From a virus: a stretch of DNA of 29,720 nucleotides. The position numbers and the translations under genes were made by a program. The notes under the pieces are model-generated. The model did not search any database and was not told where the DNA came from. It saw only the letters and a list, made by a program, of their open reading frames with translations. The stretch covers positions 1 through 29,720 of IMG/VR virus record IMGVR_UViG_3300042879_004575. The stretch is one strand, 5' to 3'. Positions 9,175-29,720 of the stretch are shown here, piece after piece. The stretch's first letter is position 1. Every line of letters begins with the position of its first letter.

Positions 9175-10653
9175 GTGGTCTACAGCGCCAATATCCCACC
9201 AACTGGTGCTGTAGTCAGCGAATCCCCGTTTGTCCGCAGCCTGGACGTCATCGCCATGATGCCGGACTGGAGCGTAATGGCCGCCGTCACCAGCGGCACC
9301 AACTACCTGCGGGACATGAGTGAAACTTATCTCCCGCAAGAACCCCGCGAAGACGACGACGCCTACCAAACCCGCGTTGACCGCAGCGTCCTGAGCCCCT
9401 ACACCAGCCGCCTCATCGAAACCGCCGCTGGCGCCATCCTCCGCAAACCCATCCACGTCGAAGGCGACCCCTACTGGCTGGACCTGATCCAAAACATCGA
9501 CGGCTTGGGCTCCAACATCAACGAATACGCCCGCCGCGCCTTGGTCAGCAGCCTGACCTACGGCCACAGCGCCATCCTCGTTGACTACCCAGCCGCCGCT
9601 GGAGCGATGAATCTGGCGGAAGAGCGTGCGATGGGCCGCCGCCCCTACTTCGTCCACGTCGATGCCTTCCAGATCTGGGGCTGGCGCAAAGAACCCGGCA
9701 CCAACCGCCTGCTGCAAGTCCGCATCCACGACTACGACGTCCGCCCCCTCAACGAGTTCGGCGAAGAACAGGTCGAGGAAATGCGCGTCATCTACCCCGG
9801 CCGCTACGACCTCTACACGCTGGGCCAAGAGATCGTCGAATTTACCTCCACCGGCGGCTACAGCCTCGACGAAATCCCCCTGGTCCCGATCTACAGCAAC
9901 CGCCGCGGCCTGCTGATCTCCCAGCCCCCACTGCTGGACATCGCCAACCTCAACATCACCCACTACCAACGCCAAGCCGACCTAATCCACGCCCTCCACA
10001 TCGCCGCAATGCCCACCCTCGTCCTAGAGGGCTGGGACGACACGACTGGCTCGGCAACGATGGGCGTCAACTACGCCATCGCCATGCAACCGGGCAACAA
10101 GGCGTACTACGTACAGGCCGACGCCACCAGTTTCGACGCCCAAATGGCCGAACTCCAATCCCTGGAGAGCCAAATGTCCACGCTGGGCGTGACCAAACTC
10201 TTCGGCCAGAAGTTCGTTGCCGAGTCCGCCGAGGCCAAGCGCATCGACCAAGCCCAGTCAAATAGCGTGCTATCAATCATCAGCCAAGAGCTGGAAAGCG
10301 CCCTCAACCAAGCCTTCGAGTTCGCCGCCCAATACGTCGGCATCGAAGCCCCCGAAATCACCATCGACCGCGACTTCGATTACTACCGCCTAATCGGCCA
10401 AGACGTCGCCGTCCTGACCCAACTCAACCAACTCGGCAAGATCAGCGACTCCATGCTTCTGGAGATCCTGCGCCGCGGCGAAGTCCTCCCCGACAACATC
10501 AACGTTGAGGACGAGGCCGACGAAGCCCGCGAGGACATGGAAGCCCCTGAGCTAATCGAGGCCAACGAAAACACTGGCGAGGACGACATGAACGAACGCG
10601 CCGAAATGACGCCCGACCGCATGGATCAGCTGATTGAGCTGCTGACCCGCTGA
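9175..10653 (+). CDS. Portal protein (DUF4055-type)
   Basis: The portal is the dodecameric ring at the capsid vertex through which DNA passes and to which the tail attaches. This 492-residue protein has the usual alpha-rich layout: N-terminal '[20 protein letters not shown]' and '[18 protein letters not shown]', a central '[15 protein letters not shown]', and a long helical C-terminal third ('[20 protein letters not shown]' then '[14 protein letters not shown]'), matching my recollection of DUF4055 portals. The final 60 residues are very acidic. The GTG at 9175 is preceded by GTAGGAGTC, a strong ribosome site. The stop overlaps the next ATG (TGATG). Confidence 0.85.
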
Positions 10654-11531
10654 TGGCCACCCAAATCGAGCAATTAACGCTCGCCCAAATCACCTCCCTG
10701 GTGCGCCTCACCAAGCGCGTCAACCAACTCCGCAACATCCTTTCCGGCACCAACGACCCCTCCACCAGCACCGGCAAAACCGGCGACTGGTACATCAACA
10801 CCACTGACTACACCCTGTTCGGCCCCAAAACCGACGACTGGGGCGACGGCTTCCCCCTTGGCACGGGCTCCAAGATTCGCACCACGGAACTAACGGTTGC
10901 CGGCTTCCCAGGCACCAACAGTGGCGGAGGCGGCGGTGGCACTGCCGGCACCATCACCATCGGCACGGTCACGACTGGCGCCCCAGGCAGCAGCGCGACG
11001 ATCACAAACGTCGGCACCGCCGAAAACGCAATCCTCGATTTCGTCATTCCCCGCGGTGACGTCGGCGCCACGGGCGCCACCGGCCCTACAGGCGCAACCG
11101 GCGCTACGGGCCCTGCCGGCCCCACTGGAGCCACCGGCCCCCAAGGCGCCACAGGTCCCGCTGGTCCCCAAGGCGAGACGGGTCCTGCAGGCCCCCAAGG
11201 CCCTCAGGGCGACCCCGGCGAACAGGGCCCCCAGGGCGAAACCGGCCCCGCAGGACCCCAAGGCGAAACAGGCGCAACGGGCGCCACTGGAGCAACCGGC
11301 GCTACCGGCCCGGCTGGCACCATCACAGTCGGCGCCGTCACCACGGGCTCCCCTGGCACGGGCGTCACTGTCACCAACAGCGGCACCAGCACCGCCGCCA
11401 TCCTGAACTTCACCATTCCCCGCGGCGACGCTGGCACCAACGCAACCGTCACCGCCGGCACAAACATCACTGTTGTAGACGGGCAAGTCTCCGTATCGGC
11501 TACCGCTGAATTTGACGATGGAACTTATTGA
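10653..11531 (+). CDS. Collagen-like virion fibre protein
   Basis: The 292 residues comprise a short N-terminal helix ('[20 protein letters not shown]'), a '[20 protein letters not shown]' adaptor seen in phage fibre proteins, a Gly-rich linker, and about 29 uninterrupted Gly-X-Y triplets (about 135-222). The collagen stretch is bracketed by two copies of a 38-residue unit (99-136 and 222-259), each ending 'AIL(D/N)F(V/T)IPRGD', probably trimerisation caps. Phage collagen domains form triple-helical stalks on heads, necks or tails. The gene is coupled to the portal by TGATG and precedes the scaffold, so a head or neck fibre is likely. Confidence 0.8.
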
Positions 11532-11573: not shown

Positions 11574-12281
11574 GTGCCCGAAGAACAGCAAGCAGCAGCC
11601 ACTCCCGTGGAGCCTGTTGCCCCTCAGCCTGTGGCTGAAAGCTCCGATCTGGCCGCCCAACTCGAAGCACTTCGTGCGAAAAACCAAGAGTTGATCGCCG
11701 AGCGCCGCAAGGACCGCGAAAACCGCGAATCCCTCCAATCCCAGCTGGAAGAATTGCGCCAAGCGCAAGAATCCGCCAAAACCGCCAAATTGGCCGAATC
11801 CGGCGAGTTCAAAACCCTCTGGGAAGAGGCCCAACAAACTGTTGCTGACCTCAAGCAACAAATGGCGGCAAAAGAAGCGGAAGTCGAGCAAATCCGCCAG
11901 GGTTACTCAAAAGAGCAACTCCGCGCTGGCGCCATCGCCCAACTCTCTTCTGCTGGTGCGCTTGCACCCGATCAGCTGTATCGTTTGGTGCAGGAGAACT
12001 TACGCGCCAAAGAAGGACAGCCTGTGGCTTATGTCGGCGGCGTGGAAGTTCCGATTGGCGAGTATATCGCCAACTTAAAAAACCCCGGCAGCGGTTACGA
12101 GCACCACTTTGCGGCTACGAACCGCGCCGGTATGGGTGTCACGGGTAGTGCCCGCGCCACCGCCCTCCCCGGCCAATCCAACCCCTGGTCCAAGGACGCC
12201 TGGAACGTCACTCAGCAAATGATGATGCTCGCCAGCGACCCCGACAAAGCCAGGCTGTTGAAAACAGAAGCCGGTTTCTAG
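11574..12281 (+). CDS. Capsid scaffolding protein
   Basis: Scaffolds guide coat assembly and leave before DNA fills the head. This 235-residue protein sits directly before the coat gene and has the expected build: a Pro/Ala/Glu-rich N-terminus, a long coiled coil from about residue 24 to 115 ('LAAQLEALRAKNQELIAERR' and 'LEELRQAQESAKTAKLAES'), and a more ordered C-terminal part with 'NPWSKDAWNVTQQMMMLASD', a likely coat-contact helix. The GTG at 11574 is the start. No protease motif (Ser/Lys dyad) is evident, so any cleavage would depend on another protein. Confidence 0.85.
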   Translation: MPEEQQAAATPVEPVAPQPVAESSDLAAQLEALRAKNQELIAERRKDRENRESLQSQLEELRQAQESAKTAKLAESGEFKTLWEEAQQTVADLKQQMAAKEAEVEQIRQGYSKEQLRAGAIAQLSSAGALAPDQLYRLVQENLRAKEGQPVAYVGGVEVPIGEYIANLKNPGSGYEHHFAATNRAGMGVTGSARATALPGQSNPWSKDAWNVTQQMMMLASDPDKARLLKTEAGF

Positions 12282-12327
12282 CCCCTGTGGGGCACCTCCC
12301 CAACCCTGACTCCACTGGAGCTAACCC

Positions 12328-13434
12328 ATGTCTGCTTCTAACAGCAACTTCGGGGGAACTTTTCTCTCGAACCTTGTTACCCGTCCTGAATTTCTTCAGT
12401 ACACCGCTGAAGGCATCTTCGAGCAATCGAAGTGGATCCAGAGCGGCATTGTGCAGCGCAACGCTGCCCTCGACGCCCGTGCTGGCGGCACCCGCGTGCG
12501 CGTGCCCTTCTTCGACCCCATCGCCCCGACCGAAACCCAAATCCTGTCCACCTCCAGCTGGAACGGTGGTCTGGGTTATCTGACCGCCCAGAACGTCACT
12601 GCCGACGAGCAGATCATGACGATTCTGCACCGTGGTTTCGCTTATGCGGCCGACGACCTCAGCAAACTCGGCTCTGGCGCCGACCCCCTGGCCCACGTCC
12701 GCAACCAACTGTCTGCAGCCATCAACAAGCTGAAGACCGCCACCCTGGCATCCCAACTGCTGGGTCTGTTCGGCGGCATCTCCGGCGCTGGTGTGCTCGG
12801 CCCCAACCAGAGCAACAAATCGTTCGCTGGTGTCCCCGGTTCCATGACCGAGGCCAACTTCCTGAACGTGGCCAACGTGGTTGGCACCAAAGCTCTGCTG
12901 GGTGAGCGCGGCGACGAGCTGGACTCGATCGCCATGCACTCCAACGTGGCTTACTACCTGCAACAGGTGGGGATGCTGACCTTCAGCACCTCGGCTCTGT
13001 CCACCGGCGGCGCCATCACCTGGGGTGGCGGCGGCGTGGGCGTCACCGCTGCTGAAGTGGCTACGTTCGCTGGCCTCCGCGTCGTCATCGACGACCAACT
13101 GACTGCCCTGACCGGCGGCACCTCCACCCACGCCAAGAAGTACCCCGTGTACCTCTTCAAGTCGGGTGTGGTTTCCGAGGGCATCCAGCAGGACCTGCGC
13201 CTCGGTGCAGACCGCAACATCCTGTCCATGCAGGACATCCTGGCCGTTGACTACCACTACGGTTACCACATCACTGGCACCAAGTGGGCCGACGCCGGCG
13301 ACAACCCGACCAACGCCTCCACCTCCGGCAACCTGGCCAACACCAGCAGCTGGAGCCTGGTGTACAGCACCACCAAGCAAGTGCCCATCGCTCGCCTGCT
13401 GGTCAACACCCCGTTCGACACCACCGCTTACTGA
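12328..13434 (+). CDS. Major capsid protein
   Basis: The 368-residue coat protein builds the icosahedral shell, presumably with the HK97 fold. Supporting features are its position after the scaffold, its length, the N-terminal 'SNLVTRPEFLQYTAEGIFEQ', the E-loop-like region 'GGTRVRVPFFDPIAPTETQI', the long central helix 'DPLAHVRNQLSAAINKLKTA' and the Gly-rich P-domain. 'GLRVVIDDQLTAL' resembles the conserved strand of P22/HK97-like coats. A GGAG ribosome site lies 8 bases before the ATG. A strong terminator follows the stop, as suits the most highly expressed late gene. Confidence 0.9.
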   Translation: MSASNSNFGGTFLSNLVTRPEFLQYTAEGIFEQSKWIQSGIVQRNAALDARAGGTRVRVPFFDPIAPTETQILSTSSWNGGLGYLTAQNVTADEQIMTILHRGFAYAADDLSKLGSGADPLAHVRNQLSAAINKLKTATLASQLLGLFGGISGAGVLGPNQSNKSFAGVPGSMTEANFLNVANVVGTKALLGERGDELDSIAMHSNVAYYLQQVGMLTFSTSALSTGGAITWGGGGVGVTAAEVATFAGLRVVIDDQLTALTGGTSTHAKKYPVYLFKSGVVSEGIQQDLRLGADRNILSMQDILAVDYHYGYHITGTKWADAGDNPTNASTSGNLANTSSWSLVYSTTKQVPIARLLVNTPFDTTAY

Positions 13435-13457
13435 TCTTCAGTACGCGCCAAAACAAA

Positions 13458-13482
13458 GGCCCCCAAACCGGGGGCCTTTTCT
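13458..13482. terminator. Bidirectional terminator after the major capsid gene
   Basis: GGCCCCC (13458-13464) and GGGGGCC (13470-13476) form a 7-bp stem with a five-base loop. TTTTCTTTT follows on the plus strand, and TTTGTTTT follows on the minus strand. It can end both the capsid transcript and the convergent minus-strand gene at 13498-13782. Confidence 0.85.
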
Positions 13483-13497
13483 TTTGCCAAAAACTAC

Positions 13498-13782
13498 TCA
13501 GCCTTCAATCTCCCCAATCCGCATTTTCTCCTGATACTCAAAAATCACTGGGGCACGCCCCACCAGCTGGTACGACTGGGTGAGCAGTTCTCTAAATACG
13601 TGCTCACTGACCTGCAGATCCTGCAGGATCGTCTCAGCAGATTCCCCACTGGAGAACCGTTCCCGAATAGCGTTAGCCACCACTTCCAGCGACCGCACGG
13701 TTTTTCCGGGGGCCGCCGATGGAACAGAAGCCACCTTTGTTTCTACGCTGGCATCAGCGTCCACAAGTTTGCGAGCAGGCAT
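13498..13782 (-). CDS. Minus-strand hypothetical protein inside the late region, 94 aa
   Basis: The protein has an unstructured Ala/Ser/Val-rich start followed by helices: 'TVRSLEVVANAIRERF' and 'ESAETILQDLQVSEHVFREL', the latter helix-turn-helix-like, then 'RAPVIFEYQEKMRIGEIEG'. Codon choice read from the minus strand is ordinary for this genome, and the bidirectional terminator lies just past its stop, both supporting a real gene. A small DNA-binding regulator or a structural accessory protein is possible. Its ATG and that of the plus-strand gene at 13781 share one palindromic CATG. Confidence 0.6.
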   Translation of the reverse strand: MPARKLVDADASVETKVASVPSAAPGKTVRSLEVVANAIRERFSSGESAETILQDLQVSEHVFRELLTQSYQLVGRAPVIFEYQEKMRIGEIEG

Positions 13783-13978: not shown

Positions 13979-14509
13979 GTGCCCGCCGCCATTGACGCCA
14001 CAGTGGGTGGAGCTTCGGCCAACAGCTATGTGACGCTGGCGGCTGCTGACACCTACTTTGAAACGGTGCCTGATTCCAGCACCTGGACCACCAAGACCAC
14101 CGACCAAAAAAACCGCGCCCTGATCTCCGCCACCCGCTGGATCGACGCGCTGAGCTTCTACGGCGACCGCTGCACGGACACCCAAGCCCTGAAGTGGCCC
14201 CGCGACAACTACACGGTGGACGGCGTTGACCTCGCCTGCACCCTGATTCCCGACGGCATCAAAACCGCCACTTACGAGCTGGCACGCGCCTTCGCCAACG
14301 ACACCGACGCCATCACCGGCAGCACCGGCACCACCGGCATCTACGACCAAGTGGAACTTGGCGAACTGAAGGTCAAATACAACAAATCCAGCCAGACCAG
14401 CGGCGTCATCAACAATGTCTTCGACGTCTACCCCTGGCTCCAGACCTACCTAGGCCCCTACTGCATGGGCGGCGCCGCCAACTACGCCGTCCGCCTCTTC
14501 CGAGGGTGA
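13979..14509 (+). CDS. Head-tail connector (DnaT-like/HK97 gp6-like)
   Basis: First connector ring under the portal. The 176-residue protein contains 'SYVTLAAADTYFETVPDSST' and 'DQKNRALISATRWIDALSFY', the alpha-helical W...K..AL..A...ID pattern of the phage proteins often mislabelled DnaT-like ssDNA-binding, followed by 'IKTATYELARAFAND' and a beta-like end. GTG start at 13979. It begins the standard cluster connector, closure, neck, terminator, tube, and its stop is one base before the next ATG. Confidence 0.75.
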   Translation: MPAAIDATVGGASANSYVTLAAADTYFETVPDSSTWTTKTTDQKNRALISATRWIDALSFYGDRCTDTQALKWPRDNYTVDGVDLACTLIPDGIKTATYELARAFANDTDAITGSTGTTGIYDQVELGELKVKYNKSSQTSGVINNVFDVYPWLQTYLGPYCMGGAANYAVRLFRG

Positions 14510-14510
14510 C

Positions 14511-14888
14511 ATGGGCCTAATCGACGACACTTTTGCCCCAATCCCCACCTCCGTCCTAGCGGACTGGGGCCAAAACATCACGTACATCAAAACCGTCACA
14601 CCCCGCACCTACGACCCCACCACCGGCAACGTGACTGGCGCCGACGCCACGGTCACGGTCAAAGCCGTCATCACCCGCGTCACACCCCGCGAATCCGAAG
14701 GTTTGTACCAAGCCACCGACGTCAAATTCATCTTCGGCAGCAACGAGCTTGGAACGTACTACCCCACCGAGGCCGACCGGATCCAGTACACCCAAGCCGG
14801 CGTCACCCGCGAAGCCAAAATCCTCAACGTCAACACCTACCGCGGCGACGCCCCAGTCCTGCACATCGTCATAGCGAGGCCCCAGTAA
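14511..14888 (+). CDS. Head-closure / head-tail adaptor protein
   Basis: The 125-residue, mostly beta-stranded protein ('DATVTVKAVITRVTPRESEG', 'VKFIFGSNELGTYYPTEADR', 'AKILNVNTYRGDAPVLHIVI') has the size and strand-rich composition of stopper or adaptor proteins (gpFII/gp16-type fold) that seal the connector after packaging. It lies second in the neck cluster. The stop shares a base with the next start. Assignment is chiefly from fold-like pattern and gene order. Confidence 0.65.
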   Translation: MGLIDDTFAPIPTSVLADWGQNITYIKTVTPRTYDPTTGNVTGADATVTVKAVITRVTPRESEGLYQATDVKFIFGSNELGTYYPTEADRIQYTQAGVTREAKILNVNTYRGDAPVLHIVIARPQ

Positions 14889-15457
14889 TGGCAAAGCTGA
14901 ACGCTCTAATCAAAGAATTAGATCGTCTCGGCGGTTCTCTGGCCCTTGTCGGCCCCACGCTTGCGGCAGAACAAATTGTGCGGGATTTACAAGATAAAGG
15001 ACCTCTGTGGACAGGTACATTTGCAAACTCCTGGGAAATAACAGGTCCACAAGGCCAAACTGCAAGAGGCACCGGTTCTGCTGGTGCTCCTCAAGCTATA
15101 GGTTTTAATACAACCCCGTTTAGCGGACGTCAAGCTACACAAACTTTGCTCAGAACCGTATTTACTACAGACAAAGTTGTGTACACCATCTCTAACTTCT
15201 GCTCCTATGCAGATGAAGCTAGAGATCTTGTGGCCTACACGCCGCCTTCGAAAGAAGAACGCAGCAAGATAGGAGAACCCCTGGGACAAGCGACATTCGG
15301 TTTCCGTAGCGCCGGCGCCAAGCGCGGTGACGTCAGTGGTTCTGGCCGTAATCGCTCCACTGCGCCCCTTGACTGGTACACCACTTATGCCGGAGGAGGA
15401 GAATTGGATCGCACCATCCAAGTAATGTTGGACAAGGCATTTAAGGCAGCCCGATGA
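14888..15457 (+). CDS. Neck / tail-completion protein (HK97 gp10-like)
   Basis: The 189-residue protein opens with a helix ('LNALIKELDRLGGSLALVGP'), then 'RDLQDKGPLWTGTFANSWEI', the 'P..TG.l..S' motif typical of HK97 gp10-type neck proteins, then 'VVYTISNFCSYADEARDLVA', where the family usually has an 'N..pYA..le.G' element. It caps the tail tube below the connector. From about 14890 to 15300 the codons are clearly more AT-rich than in the flanking genes. Its 3' end overlaps the next gene by four bases (ATGA). Confidence 0.7.
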   Translation: MAKLNALIKELDRLGGSLALVGPTLAAEQIVRDLQDKGPLWTGTFANSWEITGPQGQTARGTGSAGAPQAIGFNTTPFSGRQATQTLLRTVFTTDKVVYTISNFCSYADEARDLVAYTPPSKEERSKIGEPLGQATFGFRSAGAKRGDVSGSGRNRSTAPLDWYTTYAGGGELDRTIQVMLDKAFKAAR

Positions 15458-15885
15458 ACTACCAAGCCATCCGCGCCGCCGTCGAAAACCCGCTGCTAAC
15501 AGCGTTTGGCGCTCTTGTGCCAGCGGTGCCGGTCTATTTCGACAACATCACCGCCGTCCCACCCAACACAACTACTGAATACGTCCGCGTAAACGTCACC
15601 TTCGGCATCACCAACGAACCCACCCTGACCTCCAGCGTCGACAACGCCCGCGGAGCAATAATCATTCGCATTTTTACCGAAAAAGGCCGTGGTCCCGCCC
15701 GCAACCAAACCCTGCTAACCACCGCAGTCAACGTGCTGGAAACCCTCAACAACTCAACGAAGAGCACAACCGGCGTTTATTTCAAGGTTGGCGAAATTAA
15801 CGGCCCTACATTTTCAGCTACTGAAGATGCGCCCCATTTCGTGGGGCGAATTGAGACTTCCTACGTCGCCACTGTGTTGTCGTAG
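15454..15885 (+). CDS. Tail terminator protein (DUF4128-like)
   Basis: This 143-residue protein stops tail-tube growth and joins the tail to the neck. The features 'VYFDNITAVPPNTTTEYVRV', 'GAIIIRIFTEKGRGPARNQT' and a C-terminal beta strand pair match the DUF4128 / gpU-like pattern: a helix, a strand with 'G.l.i.if...g.G', and an end strand. Position right before the tube gene is standard. ATG overlaps the preceding gene. Confidence 0.75.
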   Translation: MNYQAIRAAVENPLLTAFGALVPAVPVYFDNITAVPPNTTTEYVRVNVTFGITNEPTLTSSVDNARGAIIIRIFTEKGRGPARNQTLLTTAVNVLETLNNSTKSTTGVYFKVGEINGPTFSATEDAPHFVGRIETSYVATVLS

Positions 15886-15959: not shown

Positions 15960-16733
15960 ATGGCCACCACCGTTCTGTCCGGCACGTCCGGCGCTCTTTA
16001 CTACAAGCCCGCTGGCACCACCGGCTCGTTCGGTGAGTCTGGCGTCAACATCGCCACCGACACCATCACGGTCGAGACCTACCTGAACCTCAAGGTAGGC
16101 GACCCCGTGAAGTTCAGCGTGATTAACAGCCAAACCGGCGGCTCCGGTTCCGGCACCCTGCCTGCTCCTATCTCGGCAGCCACCACCTATTACGTGCTCA
16201 GCTACACCGCTGCCACCGGTGAACTGACCGTCTCTACCAGCGCCGGCGGCACCATTCTCGCCATCACCGACGACGGTACCGCCGTTGCCCCCAACGAGTT
16301 CCAGGTCGCCTACGCCGATTTCGTGGCCGTGGGCCAAGTCCGCGACTGGAGCTTCGAGATCAACCGCGCTGAAATCGACGTCACCACCATCGGTCAAACC
16401 CAAGGTCAGTACGTCCCCTTCCGCAGCTACATCGCCGGCTTCGGCGACGGCACTGGCACTGCCACGGTCTACATGACCAACGAGAACGCTTCGATGTCCA
16501 ACCGGATGATCGAGGATGTGCTCCAGCGCCAGCAGACCGGTGCTGCCTTCAAGCTGTACATCGACCGCGTGTACAGCGGCGGCAACGTGAGCGACACTCT
16601 GAGCCGCTCGATCAGCTTCGACGCCACGCTGACCTCGGCCAGCATGAACGTCAACCCTGACGACGCCCAGTCCGTGACGGTGAACTTCCGCCCGGCTGCC
16701 ACCCCGACCTTCGACTTCAGCACTTCCGCCTGA
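15960..16733 (+). CDS. Major tail (tube) protein with inserted domain
   Basis: The 257-residue protein polymerises as stacked hexamers to make the tail tube. Tube-fold signatures are 'TSGALYYKPAGT' at the start, 'VRDWSFEINRAEIDVTTIGQ' (127-146), a Gly-rich 'FGDGTGTATVYM', and the end strands 'RSISFDATLTSASMNVNPDD'. Residues about 31-115 form an extra domain ('GDPVKFSV', 'TTYYVLSY', 'LTVSTSAGGT', 'LAITDDG'), a small beta module I have seen in other cyanophage structural proteins. Two downstream genes (24651, 25142) share the core but not this insert. A strong terminator follows. Confidence 0.85.
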   Translation: MATTVLSGTSGALYYKPAGTTGSFGESGVNIATDTITVETYLNLKVGDPVKFSVINSQTGGSGSGTLPAPISAATTYYVLSYTAATGELTVSTSAGGTILAITDDGTAVAPNEFQVAYADFVAVGQVRDWSFEINRAEIDVTTIGQTQGQYVPFRSYIAGFGDGTGTATVYMTNENASMSNRMIEDVLQRQQTGAAFKLYIDRVYSGGNVSDTLSRSISFDATLTSASMNVNPDDAQSVTVNFRPAATPTFDFSTSA

Positions 16734-17414: not shown

Positions 17415-19883
17415 GTGGCCTACAGAGCCGACATTGAAATAGGCGTAAAGGGTATTAGATACCTCGATGAGCTGCAGAATAAACTGACAGAAGTATCAAA
17501 AAGTATTGAAAATGTAAACAAACAAAATGTAGTAATTAGGCGCACTATTGCTGGGGCAGCTTACGCTACGCCTGCGGGTCCAGTCGGTAATGCTTTTGCA
17601 GAAGAAAGGGCCCGTGCAGCCCAAGCAAGTAGAGCACTTGAGCGGCAAGTTGCTGCAACAAGAAACGCAGAAATGCAAGCAAGTCGCATACAAACACAAG
17701 CGGAACTAAAAGCTGTAAAAGATCGCGCTATTGCGGAAAACTATATTACAAACGTATTAAACAAGCGTCTTGCAGCTAAAGCAAAAGAGGTACAGCTTGA
17801 ACAGCAACAAACCGCAGAAATAAAAAACCGCGCAGCAGCAGAAAGCCGCGGACGGACTGGAGGTGCGGTTAGCAGCGCACTTATTGGTGGCGGCTTTCCG
17901 TTACTGTTTGGGCAAGGTCCAGCAGCCGCAGCCGGTGGTGCTATCGGCGGCTTAGCTGGCGGTCTTGTAGGAGGAGGTTTTGGCTTTGCTCTTTCTATTG
18001 TTGGTACAGCTCTTGGCGATGCTGCCGAAAAAGCTGACACGTTCAACAAGCAGCTAGCAGTTTTAAATTCCCAAGTTTCCGGCACTGGAAACGCCGCAAA
18101 TATAGTCAGTAAAGATGTAAGTAATCTCGCTAAAACTTTTGGTATAGCCAATGATGAAGCCTTAAAATTACTGCAAAGTTTTGCAGGTTTTGGCGATGCT
18201 AACGTAACCAAATCGTTGGCTTTCTTGTACGGTGATGACGCTTCTATCCTAAAAGGTCTAGCCGCAGCAAAAGATCAAGCGGATTTAGCGCAAGTAATTC
18301 TTGGAGCGTATGAAAAGATCGGAATTGAAAGAGCTACTCAGCTAATAAATCAAATAAAACTGGGCGACTCGGCTGCTGTAGAACTTGCTTTCCAAAAAGC
18401 TCTGCTTGAAGCAAGAATAAAACAAACAGAAGAGGGGCTAAAGCAAATAACGATCCAAGATCGTATTGTTGCCGGTCTTGCCACTGCTGCCAGCTTTATG
18501 GGAGGCGGTCAAGGGCAAATTATTGACCCGGCTATTTTTGGTCAGCAACGCGTATTAGAAAACCGTAAAAATAATCCGCCGTCTTCAATATTTACTAACG
18601 CTTTACAGGGACTTAGACAACTGCGTTCTGCCACGCAAGGTGTGGAATCTTTGCGTCCAGATAAAGGTGCTGATAAAGCTGCTAGAGATGCTGAGCGCGA
18701 ACGCCAGCGGGTTGCTCAAGTGGTACGTGATCGCAATGCAGAAGCCTCGATACTGCGTATCCAGTCCGGGCTACAACAAAAAATTGCGGATGCTGAACTC
18801 AAGCGCGATCCTATCCTTGTAGCTCGTTTACAAGGTGAAGAAAGGATACTGGCTATTCAATACCAGTACGCTAAAGAACTAGCAAACGAGAAGAACCTAG
18901 AAGCCCAAATTGCGATTACACGCGAAGGGCGTGCCGCAATCAAAAAACAGCAAGTCGAAAATGAAATACGCCTCAACGCTATTTATGCAGAACGTAAAGA
19001 GTTTACCGAAGACACCATTAAGTCTCTGCAGTACGAACTTAACCTCAAAAATGCAACTACGGAAGCAGAACGTAATAGTTTGCGGATAGCGTATGAAATG
19101 GAGGCATTAAAAAAAGGCGGGCAAGTTGACACAAACGCGCTTCCGCAAATTGAGGCACTCAAGAAACAGCTTGCTGCCCCAGAAACCGCCGGCGAAATCA
19201 TCCAAAAACGCATTGGCGCCCTGCAAGACGAGCTAACCAAACTGACTAACATCGGCACCGTTGCCGTATCGGTGGCAGACAGCATTGGCACGGCCTTCAG
19301 CCAAGCGTTCCAGGGCATTATCTCTGGCACGATGACGGCCCAAGAAGCCCTGGCCAGTTTCTTCCAATCTGTCGGCGATGCCTTTATTCAAATGGCATCC
19401 GAGATCATCGCCAAACAGCTAACGATGATCATTCTCCAAACCGTTCTCAAAGCACTGGGTGGCGGTAGCTTCGGCGGAGGCGGCGGAGGCGCTACAGATT
19501 CTGTAGCTAACTTCAACCTTGGCGCAGCCCAATATGGCGGCGGTTTGGCAGGAGGCGGCCCAACCCGCGCTGGTACCCCTTACCTCGTTGGCGAGCGCGG
19601 CCCCGAGTTGTTTGTGCCTGGCACCAGCGGCGGCGTCATGTCCAACAGCGACCTGCGTGCCTCGATGGGCGCAGCCCCTGGTTCCAGCGGCGGCCCTGTC
19701 CTTAACATGAGCTTTGAGACCAGCACGATCAACGGGGTGGAATACGTCAGCCGCGATCAACTGGAGGCTGCGATGGCTCAAACCCGCCGCCAAGCCGCCC
19801 GCGACGGCGCCCAACGCGGCATGTCCATGACACTGGACAAACTCCAGCAGTCACCTTCCACACGTAAAAGGGTCGGCTTCTAA
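17415..19883 (+). CDS. Tail tape measure protein
   Basis: The 822-residue protein sets tail length and helps DNA exit. Features in order: an N-terminal amphipathic helix ('LDELQNKLTEVSKSIENVNK'), long helical coiled-coil regions rich in Ala/Gln/Glu, a Gly-rich hydrophobic stretch around 175-205 ('GGAIGGLAGGLVGGGFGFAL'), more coiled coil, then 'SGTMTAQEALASFFQSVGDA' and 'AFIQMASEIIAKQ', and near the end 'GERGPELFVPGTSGGVMSN', which is typical of lambda-type tape measures. By the usual rule of about 0.15 nm per residue the tail would be near 120 nm. Codon style changes near 19180 from AT-rich to GC-rich. GTG start. Confidence 0.92.
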   Translation: MAYRADIEIGVKGIRYLDELQNKLTEVSKSIENVNKQNVVIRRTIAGAAYATPAGPVGNAFAEERARAAQASRALERQVAATRNAEMQASRIQTQAELKAVKDRAIAENYITNVLNKRLAAKAKEVQLEQQQTAEIKNRAAAESRGRTGGAVSSALIGGGFPLLFGQGPAAAAGGAIGGLAGGLVGGGFGFALSIVGTALGDAAEKADTFNKQLAVLNSQVSGTGNAANIVSKDVSNLAKTFGIANDEALKLLQSFAGFGDANVTKSLAFLYGDDASILKGLAAAKDQADLAQVILGAYEKIGIERATQLINQIKLGDSAAVELAFQKALLEARIKQTEEGLKQITIQDRIVAGLATAASFMGGGQGQIIDPAIFGQQRVLENRKNNPPSSIFTNALQGLRQLRSATQGVESLRPDKGADKAARDAERERQRVAQVVRDRNAEASILRIQSGLQQKIADAELKRDPILVARLQGEERILAIQYQYAKELANEKNLEAQIAITREGRAAIKKQQVENEIRLNAIYAERKEFTEDTIKSLQYELNLKNATTEAERNSLRIAYEMEALKKGGQVDTNALPQIEALKKQLAAPETAGEIIQKRIGALQDELTKLTNIGTVAVSVADSIGTAFSQAFQGIISGTMTAQEALASFFQSVGDAFIQMASEIIAKQLTMIILQTVLKALGGGSFGGGGGGATDSVANFNLGAAQYGGGLAGGGPTRAGTPYLVGERGPELFVPGTSGGVMSNSDLRASMGAAPGSSGGPVLNMSFETSTINGVEYVSRDQLEAAMAQTRRQAARDGAQRGMSMTLDKLQQSPSTRKRVGF

Positions 19884-20299
19884 TGGCTAACTTCCCCTCC
19901 TTTACACCTACCGCACGCCGCTACACACCCGGCGTCTACCCCCAAAAAACATTCCGCACGCTGTCTGGAGTTACGGTCCGCCGTACCTTCGGCAACAGCC
20001 CCTACGGCGCCCAACTGGAACTGGAATACGGAAATATCCCCGACGCAACCGTCGACGCCTTTTTGAATCATTATCATTCTCAAACCGCCAGCAACAGCCG
20101 TTTCCGCTTATCCGACAACGTGACCGCCGGCATGAGTTCCGCGCTGACCGCCGAAGTCACCAGCTACACGGCCGACCGCGGCAATGTGCGCTGGGAGTAC
20201 GAAAAGCCGCCCCAGGTCCAGTCTGTACGCCCCGGCATTTACACCGTTACCATCACACTGCTTGGAGAAATCCGCAACACGACTACGGATGATGCGTGA
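19883..20299 (+). CDS. Minor tail protein (distal tail, gpM-like position)
   Basis: A 138-residue beta-rich protein beginning MANFPSFTPTARRYTPGVYP, with 'TFRTLSGVTVRRTFGNSPYG', then 'LELEYGNIPDATVDAFLNHY' and 'RFRLSDN', a pattern common to small distal-tail proteins that follow the tape measure. In lambda order this slot holds gpM, which attaches the tip to the tube. Start and stop overlap both neighbours (TAATG at 19881-19885; TGATG at 20297-20301). Family name is inferred from position and pattern. Confidence 0.7.
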   Translation: MANFPSFTPTARRYTPGVYPQKTFRTLSGVTVRRTFGNSPYGAQLELEYGNIPDATVDAFLNHYHSQTASNSRFRLSDNVTAGMSSALTAEVTSYTADRGNVRWEYEKPPQVQSVRPGIYTVTITLLGEIRNTTTDDA

Positions 20300-20775
20300 T
20301 GGCTATTGACGTCCGCATCGCCCAATTTTTCAATCTGACCACAACCGACGGCACCACCCACCGCTATCAAAACTATTTTGTAAACGAAAGTTACAGCTAC
20401 CTAAGCCAGCGCTACGAGTTTGCCCCTTTTCGCGCCGAAGGCACCGTATCCAACAACACGGGCGACAACACCCTTGTGCAGGTGCTGTTCCCCAACGTAG
20501 ATTTTGCCATCCGTTTGTTGGACGCCGGCAACGGCAACCGCCTGGGACGCCTGGTGCTTTCCACTGTGTGGCTGACGAGCAACAACGAAATTGCCGTAAA
20601 CGGCGCCACCCAAGTCGAGTATCTGGTTGGCATTGGCGCCAGTATCAGCGAGACTACTATTGAGCTGCGCTACCGCTCAGCCATCGACAGCGTGGTTTCC
20701 AACTTTCCGGCCCGCGTACTCACGCGCCAGCTGGTCGGCCCCCTTCCCGTCAGCGCCAACGTATCCCTCCAGTGA
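20299..20775 (+). CDS. Minor tail protein (gpL-like position)
   Basis: This 158-residue protein (MAIDVRIAQFFNLTTTDGTT) is rich in beta strands: 'YLSQRYEFAPFRAEGTVSNN', 'VDFAIRLLDAGNGNRLGRLV', 'NGATQVEYLVGIGASISETT' and an end segment 'RSAIDSVVSNFPARVLTRQL', resembling the N-terminal domain of lambda gpL-type proteins (DUF1833-like). It lacks the Cys-rich C-terminal iron-sulfur part of lambda gpL. A GTG at 20296 directly precedes the ATG; either may be used. It overlaps the next gene by four bases. Confidence 0.65.
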   Translation: MAIDVRIAQFFNLTTTDGTTHRYQNYFVNESYSYLSQRYEFAPFRAEGTVSNNTGDNTLVQVLFPNVDFAIRLLDAGNGNRLGRLVLSTVWLTSNNEIAVNGATQVEYLVGIGASISETTIELRYRSAIDSVVSNFPARVLTRQLVGPLPVSANVSLQ

Positions 20776-21149
20776 ACGATCTCATCGGTTTGCAATACGC
20801 CTGGGGCCACTCACCCCGAGACGGATCCGGCAAAACCGACTGCTTCCAGTTGGCATGTGAAGTTCACGAACGTTTGGGCTTCGGCGACTATCGCGCCCAG
20901 TTTGATTGGGTGTACGAGCAATACACGGAAACCACATTTCAGTACCGGCTAATTATTCGTTGGTTAAACGAAAACGGTCGTCGCCTTACTCAACCCATCC
21001 CCGGCGCAGTGGCCCTGTTGCCAGCCAGCGTTGGCTTGGCTTTAGCCACAGTCCTAGATGACACCTTCCTATATATTGCCCCAAGTAAGAACGTAGTTCG
21101 CAGCCCTATCCCCAAAGGCATAGGCCACTATTACTGGATGGAACGATGA
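20772..21149 (+). CDS. NlpC/P60-like tail protein, catalytic His apparently lost (gpK-like)
   Basis: NlpC/P60 proteins cleave peptidoglycan cross-peptides with a Cys-His-polar triad, and lambda gpK occupies this slot. The 125-residue protein has the Cys motif 'GKTDCFQLACEVHERLG' (Cys24). The next conserved segment, normally 'GD...HVGV...FLHA', here reads 'PGAVALLPASVGLALATVLD' and 'TFLYIAPSK': the His is replaced by Ser. It may thus be catalytically inactive, acting only structurally, or use another residue. It starts with GTG inside the previous gene and ends overlapping the hub gene's ATG. Confidence 0.6.
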   Translation: MNDLIGLQYAWGHSPRDGSGKTDCFQLACEVHERLGFGDYRAQFDWVYEQYTETTFQYRLIIRWLNENGRRLTQPIPGAVALLPASVGLALATVLDDTFLYIAPSKNVVRSPIPKGIGHYYWMER

Positions 21150-24650: not shown

Positions 24651-25145
24651 ATGGCCTTTTACACCGGACGCACCGGGGCTCTGTACCTGACCAGCACCGG
24701 CACCGGCGATGTAACGCCCGCCGCTTCCGAGCAAGCCCTCAAACTCCGCGATTGGAGCTTGGAAACCACTGTCGAACTGCTGGAAACCACCACCGTCGAC
24801 ACCGCCGTCAAAAGTTACACACCTGGATCTAGCAGCGCTTCCGGCAGCGCCACGCTGCTGTATTACCGCCGCGAAGGCACCGTTAGCACCGAACCTGGCA
24901 CGCAATTCGACCAGTTCCTGAACAAGATCATGAAGACGTCCACCACGGGCGTCACCGAAAGTGATCGCGTCGGCATGGTCCTGCGCGTGGGCCAAACTGC
25001 CGGAAGCGGCAACGACATCAAGGACGACATCGCTTTTAACGCTTATATCACCAACGCCTCGCTGCAGGTCAGCACCGGCGAACTGTCTTCGGTGGCGCTT
25101 CAATTTACGGTTGACGGACCATTCCGCGAGACCGTTGACGCATGA
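24651..25145 (+). CDS. Tail tube-like protein, compact paralogue
   Basis: The 164-residue protein resembles the tail tube protein at 15960: 'GRTGALYLTSTGT' against 'GTSGALYYKPAGT' near the start, 'LRDWSLETTVELLETTTVDT' against 'VRDWSFEINRAEIDVTTIG', 'SASGSATLLYY' against 'DGTGTATVYM', and 'DDIAFNAYITNASLQVSTGE' against 'RSISFDATLTSASMNVNPDD'. It lacks the 85-residue insert. It lies after the hub gene rather than before the tape measure, so it probably forms a ring or collar at the tail tip. Its 3' end overlaps the next gene by four bases. Confidence 0.7.
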   Translation: MAFYTGRTGALYLTSTGTGDVTPAASEQALKLRDWSLETTVELLETTTVDTAVKSYTPGSSSASGSATLLYYRREGTVSTEPGTQFDQFLNKIMKTSTTGVTESDRVGMVLRVGQTAGSGNDIKDDIAFNAYITNASLQVSTGELSSVALQFTVDGPFRETVDA

Positions 25146-26014
25146 CCTACTTCCTAGGGCATTACGGCAAAATAAAACTGCGCCGTAAATCTCCGGGCAG
25201 TTTTGCATCGACAGTTAGTCCCGCCGACGTCAACACTACCCTCAACCGTTTTGGCCTGGAGGGCTCAGTTGAAAACCTGCTGACTGGTGACCAACTGATC
25301 ATCAGTACCGAAGACGCACGCGGCCTTGACTTTTTACCGACATCCACTTGGCCCGACGGCGGCGGCACGACACAAAAGATGGTCGTGGCCTACGCAAACG
25401 TCAACGCCATCGGTGGTGTCCGCCTTTTTGAAACTTTTAGCCAAGCCATCAACAACGACCGTTCAGTCGAATACCCCCTCGAATCTTTTACTGGTACTGC
25501 TCTACCGGTAGACGTAAAAATTTACGGTTCCGTGGAACGTGTACTGGGCGACGTAACCGGCTACACATTTAACACCGACCGTGAAGCAATGGACACCACC
25601 ACAATGTCCGACCGCTTCCGGCAAATGTACTCCGCCGGGCTTATTTCCGGCAGTGGATCAATCGACTGTTTGTTTAATACCGAAAACAGTGGACTGACGG
25701 AAAATTCCCTGTTGATGCTCCAGCTGATTAACCGCACAGACATCGGCAGCGAATTTTCTTGTGCTTTGCAGCTTGTAGAAGATTCTGTGTATACAAAATC
25801 AAGCGACATTTACTACGAGTTTGATGCCATGGTGACCAAAACCGGCATTGAAGTCCGCAGTGACCAAACCATCAACTGCGTCATCGACTTTGTGACCACC
25901 GGCGAAATCCGCCTGCTGATTGGCGAACCGTCGGGTTACATCCTTAAGGAAGACACCGACCGAATCCGCCTGCAGCAGAACCTCGACTTCTTGCTGACAG
26001 AAGTAACCGACTAA
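25142..26014 (+). CDS. Tail tube-like protein, larger relative
   Basis: This 290-residue protein starts MTYFLGHYGKIKLRRKSPGS and has an N-terminal domain of about 125 residues followed by a segment with the tube pattern 'GDVTGYTFNTDREAMDTTTM' then 'YSAGLISGSGSIDCLF' (136-178) and closing strands 'IYYEFDAMVTKTGIEVRSDQ'. It is coupled to the compact tube-like gene by ATGA overlap. Both lie between the hub and the fibres, so together they may form a tail-tip ring carrying the fibres. This is inference from pattern similarity. Confidence 0.65.
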   Translation: MTYFLGHYGKIKLRRKSPGSFASTVSPADVNTTLNRFGLEGSVENLLTGDQLIISTEDARGLDFLPTSTWPDGGGTTQKMVVAYANVNAIGGVRLFETFSQAINNDRSVEYPLESFTGTALPVDVKIYGSVERVLGDVTGYTFNTDREAMDTTTMSDRFRQMYSAGLISGSGSIDCLFNTENSGLTENSLLMLQLINRTDIGSEFSCALQLVEDSVYTKSSDIYYEFDAMVTKTGIEVRSDQTINCVIDFVTTGEIRLLIGEPSGYILKEDTDRIRLQQNLDFLLTEVTD

Positions 26015-26049: not shown

Positions 26050-28221
26050 GTGGCCGACCAGCGAATTACACAGCTGACCCAACTGAACGAGGTAGACGTC
26101 GCAGCCACGGACGTTCTGCCCATCGTTGATATTTCGGCTAGCGAGACCAAAAAAGTCACCGCTAAAGACCTGTTTGAAGCTGGCGCAACCCTCGCCGACA
26201 GTTCCAGCATCGACCTGGCAAAACTCAACCAAGCCAGCGTCACCAAACTCGGTACCACGGCACTGGATAACAGCGCCGTCACCTACGCCAAGATCCAAAA
26301 CGTCAGCGCCACCGACAAACTGCTGGGTCGTAGCAGTGCTGGTGCGGGTGTTGTTGAAGAAATTTCGCTGACTGCAGCCGGCCGCGCTCTGCTTGACGAC
26401 GCGGACGCCGCCGCGCAACGCACCACGCTGGGTCTTGGCACGATCGCCACCCAAGATGCCAGCACCGTTGCAATAACTGGCGGCACGATCACCGGCGGCA
26501 CGATCACCGGCATCACCGACCTCGCCGTTGCCGACGGCGGCACTGGCGCATCTGACGCCGACACCGCCCGCACCAATCTTGGCGTGGCGATCGGCACCAA
26601 CGTCCAGGCATATGACGCCGGCCTGCAAAGCATTTCCGGGCTGACCACCAGCGCCGATCAAACCGTTTACACCACGGCCAGCGACACCTACGCGACCACA
26701 AGCCTCACCAGCTATGGCCGCAGCCTGATTGACGACACCGACGCCGCCACCGCCCGCACCACCCTCGGCCTTGGCACGCTCGCCACCCAATCCGGCACGT
26801 TTAGCGGCACCCATTCCGGCACCACTTCTGGCACCAACACCGGTGACCAGACGATCACGCTGACCGGCGACGTCACCGGCTCGGGCACTGGCTCGTTCGC
26901 CACCACCATTGCCAACGACGCCGTTACTGCCGCCAAGATCGCCAGCAGCGCCGTCACCACCGCCAAAATCAACGCGGCGGCTGTGACAGCTGCAAAATTG
27001 GCCGCTGACTCCAGCACCATCATCTCCGGCAACACGCCCAGCGGCAGCGGCGCTTTTGTAGGTCAACAGTGGTTTAACACCAACACCGGACTGGCCTACG
27101 CCTGGGATGGAACCGCGTGGATCCAACAAGCCGGCGTCCAGAGTTTTGTTTTCTCGGATTCCACCCCGCTTACGTTTAGCGCATCGGTCAATGCAGCTGG
27201 TGTTGCCACAATCACCACCGGCCTTGATACCCAAGCGGCCAACCGCATTTTTGCCGGTCCGACCACCGGCTCGAGCGCAACCCCAACATTCCGCGCACTG
27301 GTTCCTGCCGATCTACCAGTCGCCACTGCTGGTGCAACCGGCGCAATTCAACCAGGCACTGGTCTAACCGTAACCGCTGGTGGTGTCCTCAACCACAGCA
27401 ACGCCACCACTGCCGGCATCTACACCAAGGTTTCGATTGACGCCCAGGGTCACATCGTCACCGGCGACGTTCTGGCCGCAACCGATATTCCCAATCTTGA
27501 CGCCAGCAAGATTACGACTGGCACTTTCACCAGTGCGTTCCTCGCTAACAACAGCGTTACTGCTGCCCAGTTGGCTGACTACGGCATCGCCCAAGTCAGC
27601 GAAAGTGCTCCAACACCTGAATTTGCTGGTCAGTGGTGGATTAACCCGTCCGACCGCTCGGCCTACATCTGGGTCGGCACAGTTAGCCCAACTCCCAACG
27701 GTTACTGGCTGCTTGTCGGCTACGGCAGCCCCACCCAACTCAACATTCGTTTCGGTGGCACGTACAACGCCAGTACCAACACCGTTGCCACCCTCAACCA
27801 GTACGGCACCGAAGCTGGCCTGACTGTGGGCCAAGCACTGGGTGCGCCCAACCCCCAAAACAACGGTATTTACCTGATTACAACGGTAGCCGGCACCGGC
27901 ACCACGCCGGCTCCTATTGCATCCCTGGCAGTCGGCGACTGGGTTCTCAGCCAAGGCACCACAGCCAACTGGACCAAGATTGCTGTGGTCTCTGGCGCGA
28001 CCGGCACCTTCAACGATTACGACATTCTGTCGGACGGCACCTACTTCACCCCGGACATGACCGGGGTGACGGACGTCCGAGACGCACTTGTCTTGCTGTG
28101 GGGCCGCACTCAAATAGCCACCACCTCGCAAATCGGCGTGGTACTCGAATCTGCCGAAGTGCTGGTTAATAACAGCACGGGTGAAATGACAATCGGTGTG
28201 GTTGACGATGGCACCTTCTGA
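26050..28221 (+). CDS. Tail fibre protein with repeated modules
   Basis: The 723-residue protein is Thr/Ala/Gly/Ser-rich, as expected for an elongated trimeric fibre. Its N-terminus 'MADQRITQLTQLNEVDVAAT' with 'LPIVDISASETKKVTAKDLF' is the attachment domain found in many phage fibres. Inside are repeats: 'DDADAAAQRTTLGLGTIATQ' and 'DDTDAATARTTLGLGTLATQ', and several 'AVTAAKI' units. The C-terminal part has 'GQWWINPSDRSAYIWVGTVS' and 'NIRFGGTYNASTNTVATLNQ', then 'GVTDVRDALVLLWGR' and an end domain that may bind the receptor or the next gene product. GTG start; the stop overlaps the next ATG (TGATG). Confidence 0.85.
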   Translation: MADQRITQLTQLNEVDVAATDVLPIVDISASETKKVTAKDLFEAGATLADSSSIDLAKLNQASVTKLGTTALDNSAVTYAKIQNVSATDKLLGRSSAGAGVVEEISLTAAGRALLDDADAAAQRTTLGLGTIATQDASTVAITGGTITGGTITGITDLAVADGGTGASDADTARTNLGVAIGTNVQAYDAGLQSISGLTTSADQTVYTTASDTYATTSLTSYGRSLIDDTDAATARTTLGLGTLATQSGTFSGTHSGTTSGTNTGDQTITLTGDVTGSGTGSFATTIANDAVTAAKIASSAVTTAKINAAAVTAAKLAADSSTIISGNTPSGSGAFVGQQWFNTNTGLAYAWDGTAWIQQAGVQSFVFSDSTPLTFSASVNAAGVATITTGLDTQAANRIFAGPTTGSSATPTFRALVPADLPVATAGATGAIQPGTGLTVTAGGVLNHSNATTAGIYTKVSIDAQGHIVTGDVLAATDIPNLDASKITTGTFTSAFLANNSVTAAQLADYGIAQVSESAPTPEFAGQWWINPSDRSAYIWVGTVSPTPNGYWLLVGYGSPTQLNIRFGGTYNASTNTVATLNQYGTEAGLTVGQALGAPNPQNNGIYLITTVAGTGTTPAPIASLAVGDWVLSQGTTANWTKIAVVSGATGTFNDYDILSDGTYFTPDMTGVTDVRDALVLLWGRTQIATTSQIGVVLESAEVLVNNSTGEMTIGVVDDGTF
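26479..26508 (+). repeat. Tandem 15-bp repeat in the fibre gene
   Basis: GGCGGCACGATCACC occurs twice head to tail (26479-26493, 26494-26508), keeping the reading frame and encoding GGTIT twice. Such in-frame repeats allow fibre length to change by slippage. Confidence 0.75.
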
Positions 28222-28428: not shown

Positions 28429-29720
28429 ATGGCCTCGACGCATAAGTCTCTTCGCAGCGGCACTGCAAATAAGCGCCCGACGACTTCGATTGCCGACGGC
28501 CAGATTGCCCTTAACACCAATACCACCAGTCCCGGCCTGTTCTTCAAGGACAGCACTGGTGCCACCATCATCAAAGTCGGCCCGGTTCACGTTGGCACGA
28601 CTGCACCTAACGCCAGCCCGGCAGCCGGCGGCAGTGCCGGCAACAGCGTTGGCGAGATCTGGCTTGACACCAGTCTGACCCCCGTCGGCGTCAAGATCTG
28701 GAACGGCAGCGCCTTTGTCAACGCCACCCCCATCGGCAGCACCACCGTTCAGGGTCTGCTGGAACTTGCCACCAGCGCCGAAACTCAGACTGGTACTGAC
28801 ACCGACCGCGCTGTAACTCCCGCTGGTCTGCAGTCCAAAGTCAGCGATAGCACCAGCACCACCAGCTCCACCACTATTGCTTCGAGCACGGCAGTCAAGT
28901 CGGCCTACGACCTCGCCAATGCTGCTCTGCCCAAATCCGGCGGCACTGTTACCGGCAACCTGGAGATCGGCACCACCGGCAGCCTGAGTTTCGAAGGCGC
29001 CACTGCCGACGCTTTTGAAACCACGATTGCGGTCACCGACCCAACTGCTGACCGCACCATCACTCTGCCGGATACCACTGGCACGGTAGTCACGACTGGT
29101 GACACCGGCACCGTGACCAGCACGATGATCCTTGATGGCACCATCGTCAACGGAGACATCAACGCTTCTGCCGCAATCGATCACAGCAAGCTGGCAAATA
29201 TCACTGCTGGTTCTGTGCTGCTTGGTAATGCCAGCAACGTCCCCACCGCCACTGCTCTTACTGGTGATGTAACCATCAGTAGCAGCGGTGTTACTGCCAT
29301 TGGCAGCGGTGTAATTGTCAACGCCGACGTAAACGCTTCTGCCGCCATCGCTGGCACCAAGATCAGCCCGGACTTTGGCAGCCAAAACACCACGACCACC
29401 GGCACCAGCACTGCAGCCAGCTTCATCCCCACCAGCAGCACCGCCCCCAGCAACGGCGTTTATCTGCCTTCGGCAAACAACGTAGCCATCTCAACTAATG
29501 GGTCTGGCAAGATCTTTGTTGGCAGCACTGGCACCGTTAATTTCACTGGTGGCGGCACCGCAGGCTCCACTCAAGCCGTCAGCTTTAACGGCAGCGCACC
29601 TGTCAACAGCCTCGTTATTGACTCCAGTGGGCGAACGGGCTTAGGAGTTGCTTCGCCTCAATACAACCTACACGGCACTGGATACGTTGGCCTTGGTACT
29701 CAGGCATCTTCGGGCTCTGG
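28429..29720 (+). CDS. Tail fibre / receptor-binding protein, incomplete at right edge
   Basis: An ATG preceded by GGAG and AAGGG opens a frame with no stop to the window edge, giving at least 430 residues. It starts MASTHKSLRSGTANKRPTTS followed by 'IADGQIALNTNTTSPGLFFK', a typical phage fibre N-terminal attachment unit, then 'GEIWLDTSLTPVGVKIWNGS' and beta-repeat stretches such as 'TITLPDTTGTVVTTGDTG' and 'ALTGDVTISSSGVTAIGSG'. Near the edge 'DSSGRTGLGVASPQYNLHG' resembles the 'RVGIGT.SP...L' unit that commonly precedes a C-terminal chaperone or receptor-binding domain. The C-terminus lies outside the window. Confidence 0.8.
   Translation, partial: MASTHKSLRSGTANKRPTTSIADGQIALNTNTTSPGLFFKDSTGATIIKVGPVHVGTTAPNASPAAGGSAGNSVGEIWLDTSLTPVGVKIWNGSAFVNATPIGSTTVQGLLELATSAETQTGTDTDRAVTPAGLQSKVSDSTSTTSSTTIASSTAVKSAYDLANAALPKSGGTVTGNLEIGTTGSLSFEGATADAFETTIAVTDPTADRTITLPDTTGTVVTTGDTGTVTSTMILDGTIVNGDINASAAIDHSKLANITAGSVLLGNASNVPTATALTGDVTISSSGVTAIGSGVIVNADVNASAAIAGTKISPDFGSQNTTTTGTSTAASFIPTSSTAPSNGVYLPSANNVAISTNGSGKIFVGSTGTVNFTGGGTAGSTQAVSFNGSAPVNSLVIDSSGRTGLGVASPQYNLHGTGYVGLGTQASSGS

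Follow-up and report, generated by a model that had tools for sequence, protein, structure and literature searches.

A candidate tail-tip pair related to the tail tube protein, encoded between the hub and fibre genes of an environmental virus

The attachment of side fibres varies among siphophages and is understood for only a few of them. In T5, p140, a duplicate of the tail tube protein (TTP) without its decoration, forms a ring at the tip on which the fibre collar sits; the ring is a trimer forming a pseudo-hexamer, and the collar is built from a separate Ig-fold protein, p132 (PMC10038345). The T5 authors regarded p140 and p132 as a landmark of T5-like phages only and considered that anchoring elsewhere would differ (PMC10038345). 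In T4, gp54 is an extra TTP-like baseplate ring that separates the tube initiator from the main tube (PMC10038345). In lambda, gpM is the distal tube-fold ring between tube and hub, and gpK, a product of the tip cluster, was not detected in virions (PMC10721106). Extra tube-fold rings at the tip are already known, as T5 p140, T4 gp54 and gpM/Dit illustrate. The first reading of the locus described here knew of no such arrangement as a described standard for siphophages; p140, however, is a precedent (PMC10038345), and gp54 is another.

The tail gene cluster and two homologues of the tube protein

We analysed a 29,720-base virus fragment from IMG/VR (IMGVR_UViG_3300042879_004575, positions 1 to 29,720; hereafter the window), which probably derives from an uncultured tailed virus related to aquatic cyanobacterial viruses. 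The nearest named phages by TTP are the cyanophages KBS-S-2A (70% identity) and S-2L (31%). The window carries a lambda-like tail cluster that comprises a terminator, TTP, chaperone, tape measure, M, L, K and J, followed by A164, B290 and the fibres (Table 1). The names M, L, K and J were assigned by gene position together with PHROG matches; among the tail genes tested, the terminator alone attained its Pfam cut-off, and K had no Pfam match. Rfam and tRNA scans of the window returned no match. Between portal-like and capsid genes, positions 10653-11531 encode a 292-residue protein with collagen-type repeats (Pfam Collagen, E = 2.9e-15).

Table 1. Positions of the tail genes in the window
Feature	Position	Strand	Remarks
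Tail terminator	15454-15885		Separate gene; Pfam match
Main tail tube protein (TTP), 257 aa	15960..16733	+	70% identical to the TTP of cyanophage KBS-S-2A
Chaperone	start 16829
Tape measure	start 17415
M, small minor tail protein	19883..20299	+	Position of lambda gpM
L, minor tail protein of the tip module	20296..20775	+	Position of lambda gpL
K, small protein	20772..21149	+	Position of lambda gpK; NlpC/P60-like by eye only
J, hub/central tip protein, 1158 aa	21146..24622	+
A164, predicted minimal tail-tube-fold protein, 164 aa	24651..25145	+	Short loop at the site of the TTP insert
B290, probable tail-tube-fold protein, 290 aa	25142..26014	+	Core ~133-260; N-terminal insert ~20-132
Fibre 1	26050..28221	+	Directly 3' of B290; N-terminal ~45 residues conserved among relatives
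Second fibre-like repetitive ORF	28429..29718	+	Continues beyond the window end

The original prediction, made from the sequence of the window, had placed two extra tube-like genes at 24651-25145 and 25142-26014, beside the fibres and with motifs in common with TTP. Both open reading frames are present, and both do adjoin the fibres, lying between hub gene J and fibre 1; the A164 stop and the B290 start overlap by 4 bases (ATGA, 25142-25145). The motifs can likewise be located in TTP (VRDWSFEINRAEIDVTT), A164 (LRDWSLETTVELLETTT) and B290 (VTGYTFNTDREAMDTTT); in all three, a Gly/Ser-rich turn and then a closing strand come next. Judged at the level of sequence, this likeness is greater than chance would give.

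Among the three proteins, TTP and B290 were the sole significant pair by BLASTP (E = 3e-6); the comparison of TTP with A164 (E = 0.15) was not significant alone, nor was that of A164 with B290. With TTP as the query, phmmer retrieved homologues of A164 at E-values as good as 4.5e-11 and homologues of B290 at up to 1.2e-7. Profile-profile comparison linked all three families, both with full families and narrow alignments (A-TTP, 1e-8; B-TTP, 2.6e-5; A-B, 0.0016) and with cores and broader alignments (A-TTP, 9e-12; B-TTP, 1e-11; A-B, 5e-9). When the A profile was compared with eight window proteins, TTP (1.8e-13) and the B protein (5e-9) stood apart from the tail proteins M and L (>0.3). Up to 18 of 20 members of the A family matched PHROG families annotated as major tail protein (best E-values, 5.5e-12 for PHROG 10528 and 1.6e-12 for PHROG 1407), and 3 of 14 members of the B family did so (best, 5.8e-5); some A members also matched Pfam Phage_TTP_11/16 and Phage_tail_2, at E-values of only ~1e-3. 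We conclude that A164 and B290 are almost certainly homologous to TTP. The claim that this phage has three tube-fold relatives is therefore borne out by the family profiles (E ~1e-11 for each against TTP), and the significant similarity among all three that the original prediction had called for was obtained. A relationship of M to A or B was also considered and is unsupported, as no significant profile link was detected.

Single-sequence searches of Pfam, NCBIfam and PDB sequences with A164 and B290 gave nothing useful, and the A and B family profiles had no tail-protein match among the sequences of solved structures in the PDB. Neither protein had a tblastn match in 50,697 phage records, and genome contigs of 84,980 species contained no relative. 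Among phage records, the proteins matched by a divergent A protein, from phages of Prochlorococcus and others, either carried an annotation as ordinary tube proteins or had none; a divergent B protein had no match in these records.

Predicted folds and inserts

The AlphaFold2 model of A164 (pLDDT 72, pTM 0.66) presents one strand, two long strands, a helix and three strands, in this order. Its best Foldseek match in the PDB is lambda gpV (E = 4.5e-7, TM 0.57-0.60), and all 46 PDB matches at E <= 0.001 are phage tails, phage-like particles or injection systems, a class judged by entry titles (tubes, baseplates, necks, caps and Hcp). On this model, A164 very probably adopts the tube fold. Confidence in the B290 model is lower (pLDDT 69, pTM 0.62): its core resembles gpV and other tubes over ~90 columns with a Foldseek probability of ~0.95 at E >= 0.02, so that no PDB match reached a significant E-value, and four matches to predicted viral proteins at E <= 0.001, without a name and with rmsd near 16, added little. 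Because this model is weak, the tube fold of B290, which we consider probable, stands mainly on sequence homology. The features that characterize the gpV-like superfamily, a beta sandwich with a long hairpin and a flanking helix, are found in the A164 model and, weakly, in the B290 core, where the sequence profiles add to them. The suggested fold comparison thus came out clearly in its A164 part, which matches solved tail tubes, but at E >= 0.02 only for the resemblance of the B290 core to gpV.

In TTP and B290 the first strand is separated from the core by ~100 residues (~105 in the TTP insert), where A164 has only a short loop. That the two inserts are the same domain is unsupported, since only 11 columns align in a profile comparison. 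The B proteins of one divergent clade (L185, L285-L291) exceed the others in length by ~75-85 residues, and the next fibre there has a different N-terminus; in L285-L291 this N-terminus is unlike that of other relatives and, by eye, recalls the start of the S-2L fibre. In L218, a protein encoded downstream of the fibre gene (15024-15605) matches the TTP profile (3.5e-7), apparently via an insert like the GDPVxF...LPA...TTYYV stretch of TTP; a similar insert is visible in the TTP of S-2L, which suggests a mobile insert that serves as a decoration domain.

Inheritance of the pair with the tail tip and its fibre neighbour

The A-B pair is present in well over a hundred environmental contigs, and no cultured representative was detected. 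A and then B followed J in 21 of 21 TTP-anchored loci with >800 bases past J (B being incomplete at the locus end in some); one further TTP-anchored locus stops 305 bases past J, inside M. A likewise lay past J in 19 of the 19 L-anchored loci that extend at least 700 bases beyond it, and A-anchored loci show the identical gene order. A and B occur as a fixed pair, with an overlap of 4 or 1 bases in 189/197 loci (some contigs counted twice); an overlap shared by almost every relative suggests that production of the two proteins is coupled and matched.

Relatives come in two arrangements, one with M before L (arrangement 1) and one reading J-M-A-B, with M directly before A (arrangement 2). M directly precedes A164 in about half of the relatives, for example at L137:18652-19017, and so alternates between two fixed sites, before L or after J upstream of A164. 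A sister hub type, found with the L protein of the isolated phage S-LBS1, had A after J in none of 49 contigs; loci of this type have a related but shorter hub and then one or two M-type genes. S-LBS1 itself (L200) carries two M-type tail proteins (15008-15559 and 16001-16441). The isolated phage Mic1 (L201) encodes four (11938-13614, 14229-14621, 19017-19442 and 19439-20746), two of them with long C-terminal additions; A and B were not detected in Mic1.

Mantel tests on pairwise identities over 36 distinct loci indicated that A and B diverge together (r = 0.90) and with M, L, K and J (r = 0.74-0.82, p = 0.0005). Their correlation with TTP was r = 0.12 (p = 0.08-0.10), in a TTP sample of limited range (59-100% identity). 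The pair is absent from phages that have a related TTP but another hub, namely KBS-S-2A (70%) and L333, L351 and L359 (50-52%). In a tree, the TTPs, including those of KBS-S-2A and S-2L, both of which lack the pair, form one group (98/91), B forms one group (94/98), and A forms one group except for the long-branched A_L185, which falls beside the TTP clade; some other branches are also long, and the tree is to be read with this caution. A recent duplication of the TTP gene within this phage is rejected by the tree. From the tree grouping and the inheritance with the hub genes, it follows that the pair is part of the tip module and that it either predates this TTP lineage or entered from elsewhere. 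The proposed duplication of the tube protein is thus upheld as common ancestry with TTP, but not as a recent copy of this phage's own TTP, and the tip module is inherited independently of the tube gene.

The gene after B opens, in most loci, with a conserved stretch of ~45 residues. Divergence of this fibre N-terminus follows B290 best (r = 0.89; partial correlation given J, 0.78; that of J given B, 0.03), a correlation that gene adjacency alone could produce. Within each arrangement the fibre tracks the B290 insert more than the core. We do not rely on this insert-specific tracking, since in arrangement 1 other genes do likewise; in the control for arrangement 2, A follows the B core and the fibre follows the B insert. 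KBS-S-2A fibres have a similar N-terminus without A or B. That the fibre is mounted on B290 is offered as a tentative suggestion. Of the tip ring or fibre-carrying collar that had been proposed, the tip is still the best reading, but the fibre part is confounded by adjacency and by the similar N-terminus in KBS-S-2A.

Proposed role and comparison with known tails

On balance we favour the reading that A164 and B290 are built into the tail tip as structural proteins and form extra tube-type rings there, one of them perhaps fibre-bearing. Since the pair is inherited with the tip genes and not with TTP, extra rings at the tip are the most likely arrangement; we consider a location at the tip likely, and ring formation reasonably probable. 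A164 and B290 would each form a ring, or would share rings, at the distal end of the tube, and these would lie where the last TTP ring meets the M/L/J hub, either between the two or around them. A164, lacking the TTP insert, could be a plain ring that leaves space for a surrounding structure, as T5 p140 does, and B290, with its outward insert and its gene directly before a fibre gene, could be a decorated ring on which the first fibre is mounted or by which it is spaced. The full picture for this common, uncultured group of lambda-like siphophages, with two further kinds of tube-fold ring at the tip besides the main tube and the gpM-type ring, the first fibre on the B290 insert and the tube fold itself as a fibre collar exchanged with the hub as one module, is more doubtful.

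Alternatively, the two proteins could have kept the tube fold without lining the channel and could surround the hub as an outer collar or fibre adaptor, in the manner of the Ig-fold proteins BppU or T5 p132. The location of the genes between hub and fibre genes, the B290 insert and the fibre N-terminus that follows B290 would all fit an outer collar, but in the tails that have been solved, the tube or its ends are where tube-fold homologues form the lining, and A164, a bare tube domain, offers little extra surface; we consider this reading unlikely. Incorporation of A164 and B290 into the tail shaft as alternative subunits would have a parallel in SPP1, which mixes gp17.1 and gp17.1* in its shaft. 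The shared fold and the two tandem tube genes found at the canonical place in S-H1 and L396 agree with mixing; however, inheritance follows the tip rather than TTP, and the pair varies with the hub type while TTP stays, which makes shaft subunits very unlikely.

Tail terminators and completion proteins have a related fold, and the Foldseek matches include neck proteins, as would suit a place for A164 and B290 at the head-proximal end, in the neck or on the terminator side. The window, however, has a separate terminator (15454-15885), and this, together with gene position and co-inheritance with the hub, leaves a head-proximal location hardly credible. The pair could also act in assembly, starting tube formation on the hub without staying in the virion; lambda gpK, encoded in the tip cluster and undetected in virions (PMC10721106), offers a model. 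A complete tube fold that is strongly conserved points to a part built into the particle, nothing found here speaks for an assembly role, and we regard it as highly improbable. We retain the preferred reading of tip rings, in which the A-B pair is a candidate fibre-bearing tip ring that adjoins a fibre gene and is exchanged with the hub.

Several described systems resemble this locus in part. Synechococcus phage S-H1, Prochlorococcus phage MED4-117 and contig L396 have two tube-fold paralogues each. In S-H1 and L396, however, both tube genes occupy the canonical tube site, ahead of the chaperone, and not after the hub, and in MED4-117 the two genes are at opposite ends of the linear record. 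Tube-fold genes of this kind were located at 7193-8031 in L396, at 15510-16351 in L118, and at 611-1030 and 38473-38832 in L119, and they represent another route by which one phage can come to have two tubes. The S-LBS1-type hub shares with the present one related L and J proteins and small structural genes after J, but there the extra genes are M paralogues, and not one of the 49 contigs has A or B after J. A conserved, co-inherited pair of tube paralogues, recognisable as such by sequence and placed after the hub, was found neither in the cultured phage records searched nor in the literature searched, which took in only a minority of subscription-journal papers.

Among the extra rings of known tails, T4 gp54 belongs to a contractile-tail phage and has no detectable sequence relationship to A164 or B290. 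Lambda gpM differs in that the present phage has a separate M gene in the gpM position; A164 and B290 would therefore be additional. T5 p140 is likewise a tube-fold protein distinct from TTP and encoded in the tip-gene cluster of a phage with side fibres, as the A164 and B290 genes lie in a tip/fibre cluster. A sequence link of the A164 and B290 profiles to p140 was not found among PDB sequences. Like p140, A164 is without the decoration domain of TTP; B290, in contrast, has an insert of its own. T5 combines one p140 ring with a separate p132, whereas the locus described here encodes two single-domain paralogues, one of them decorated.
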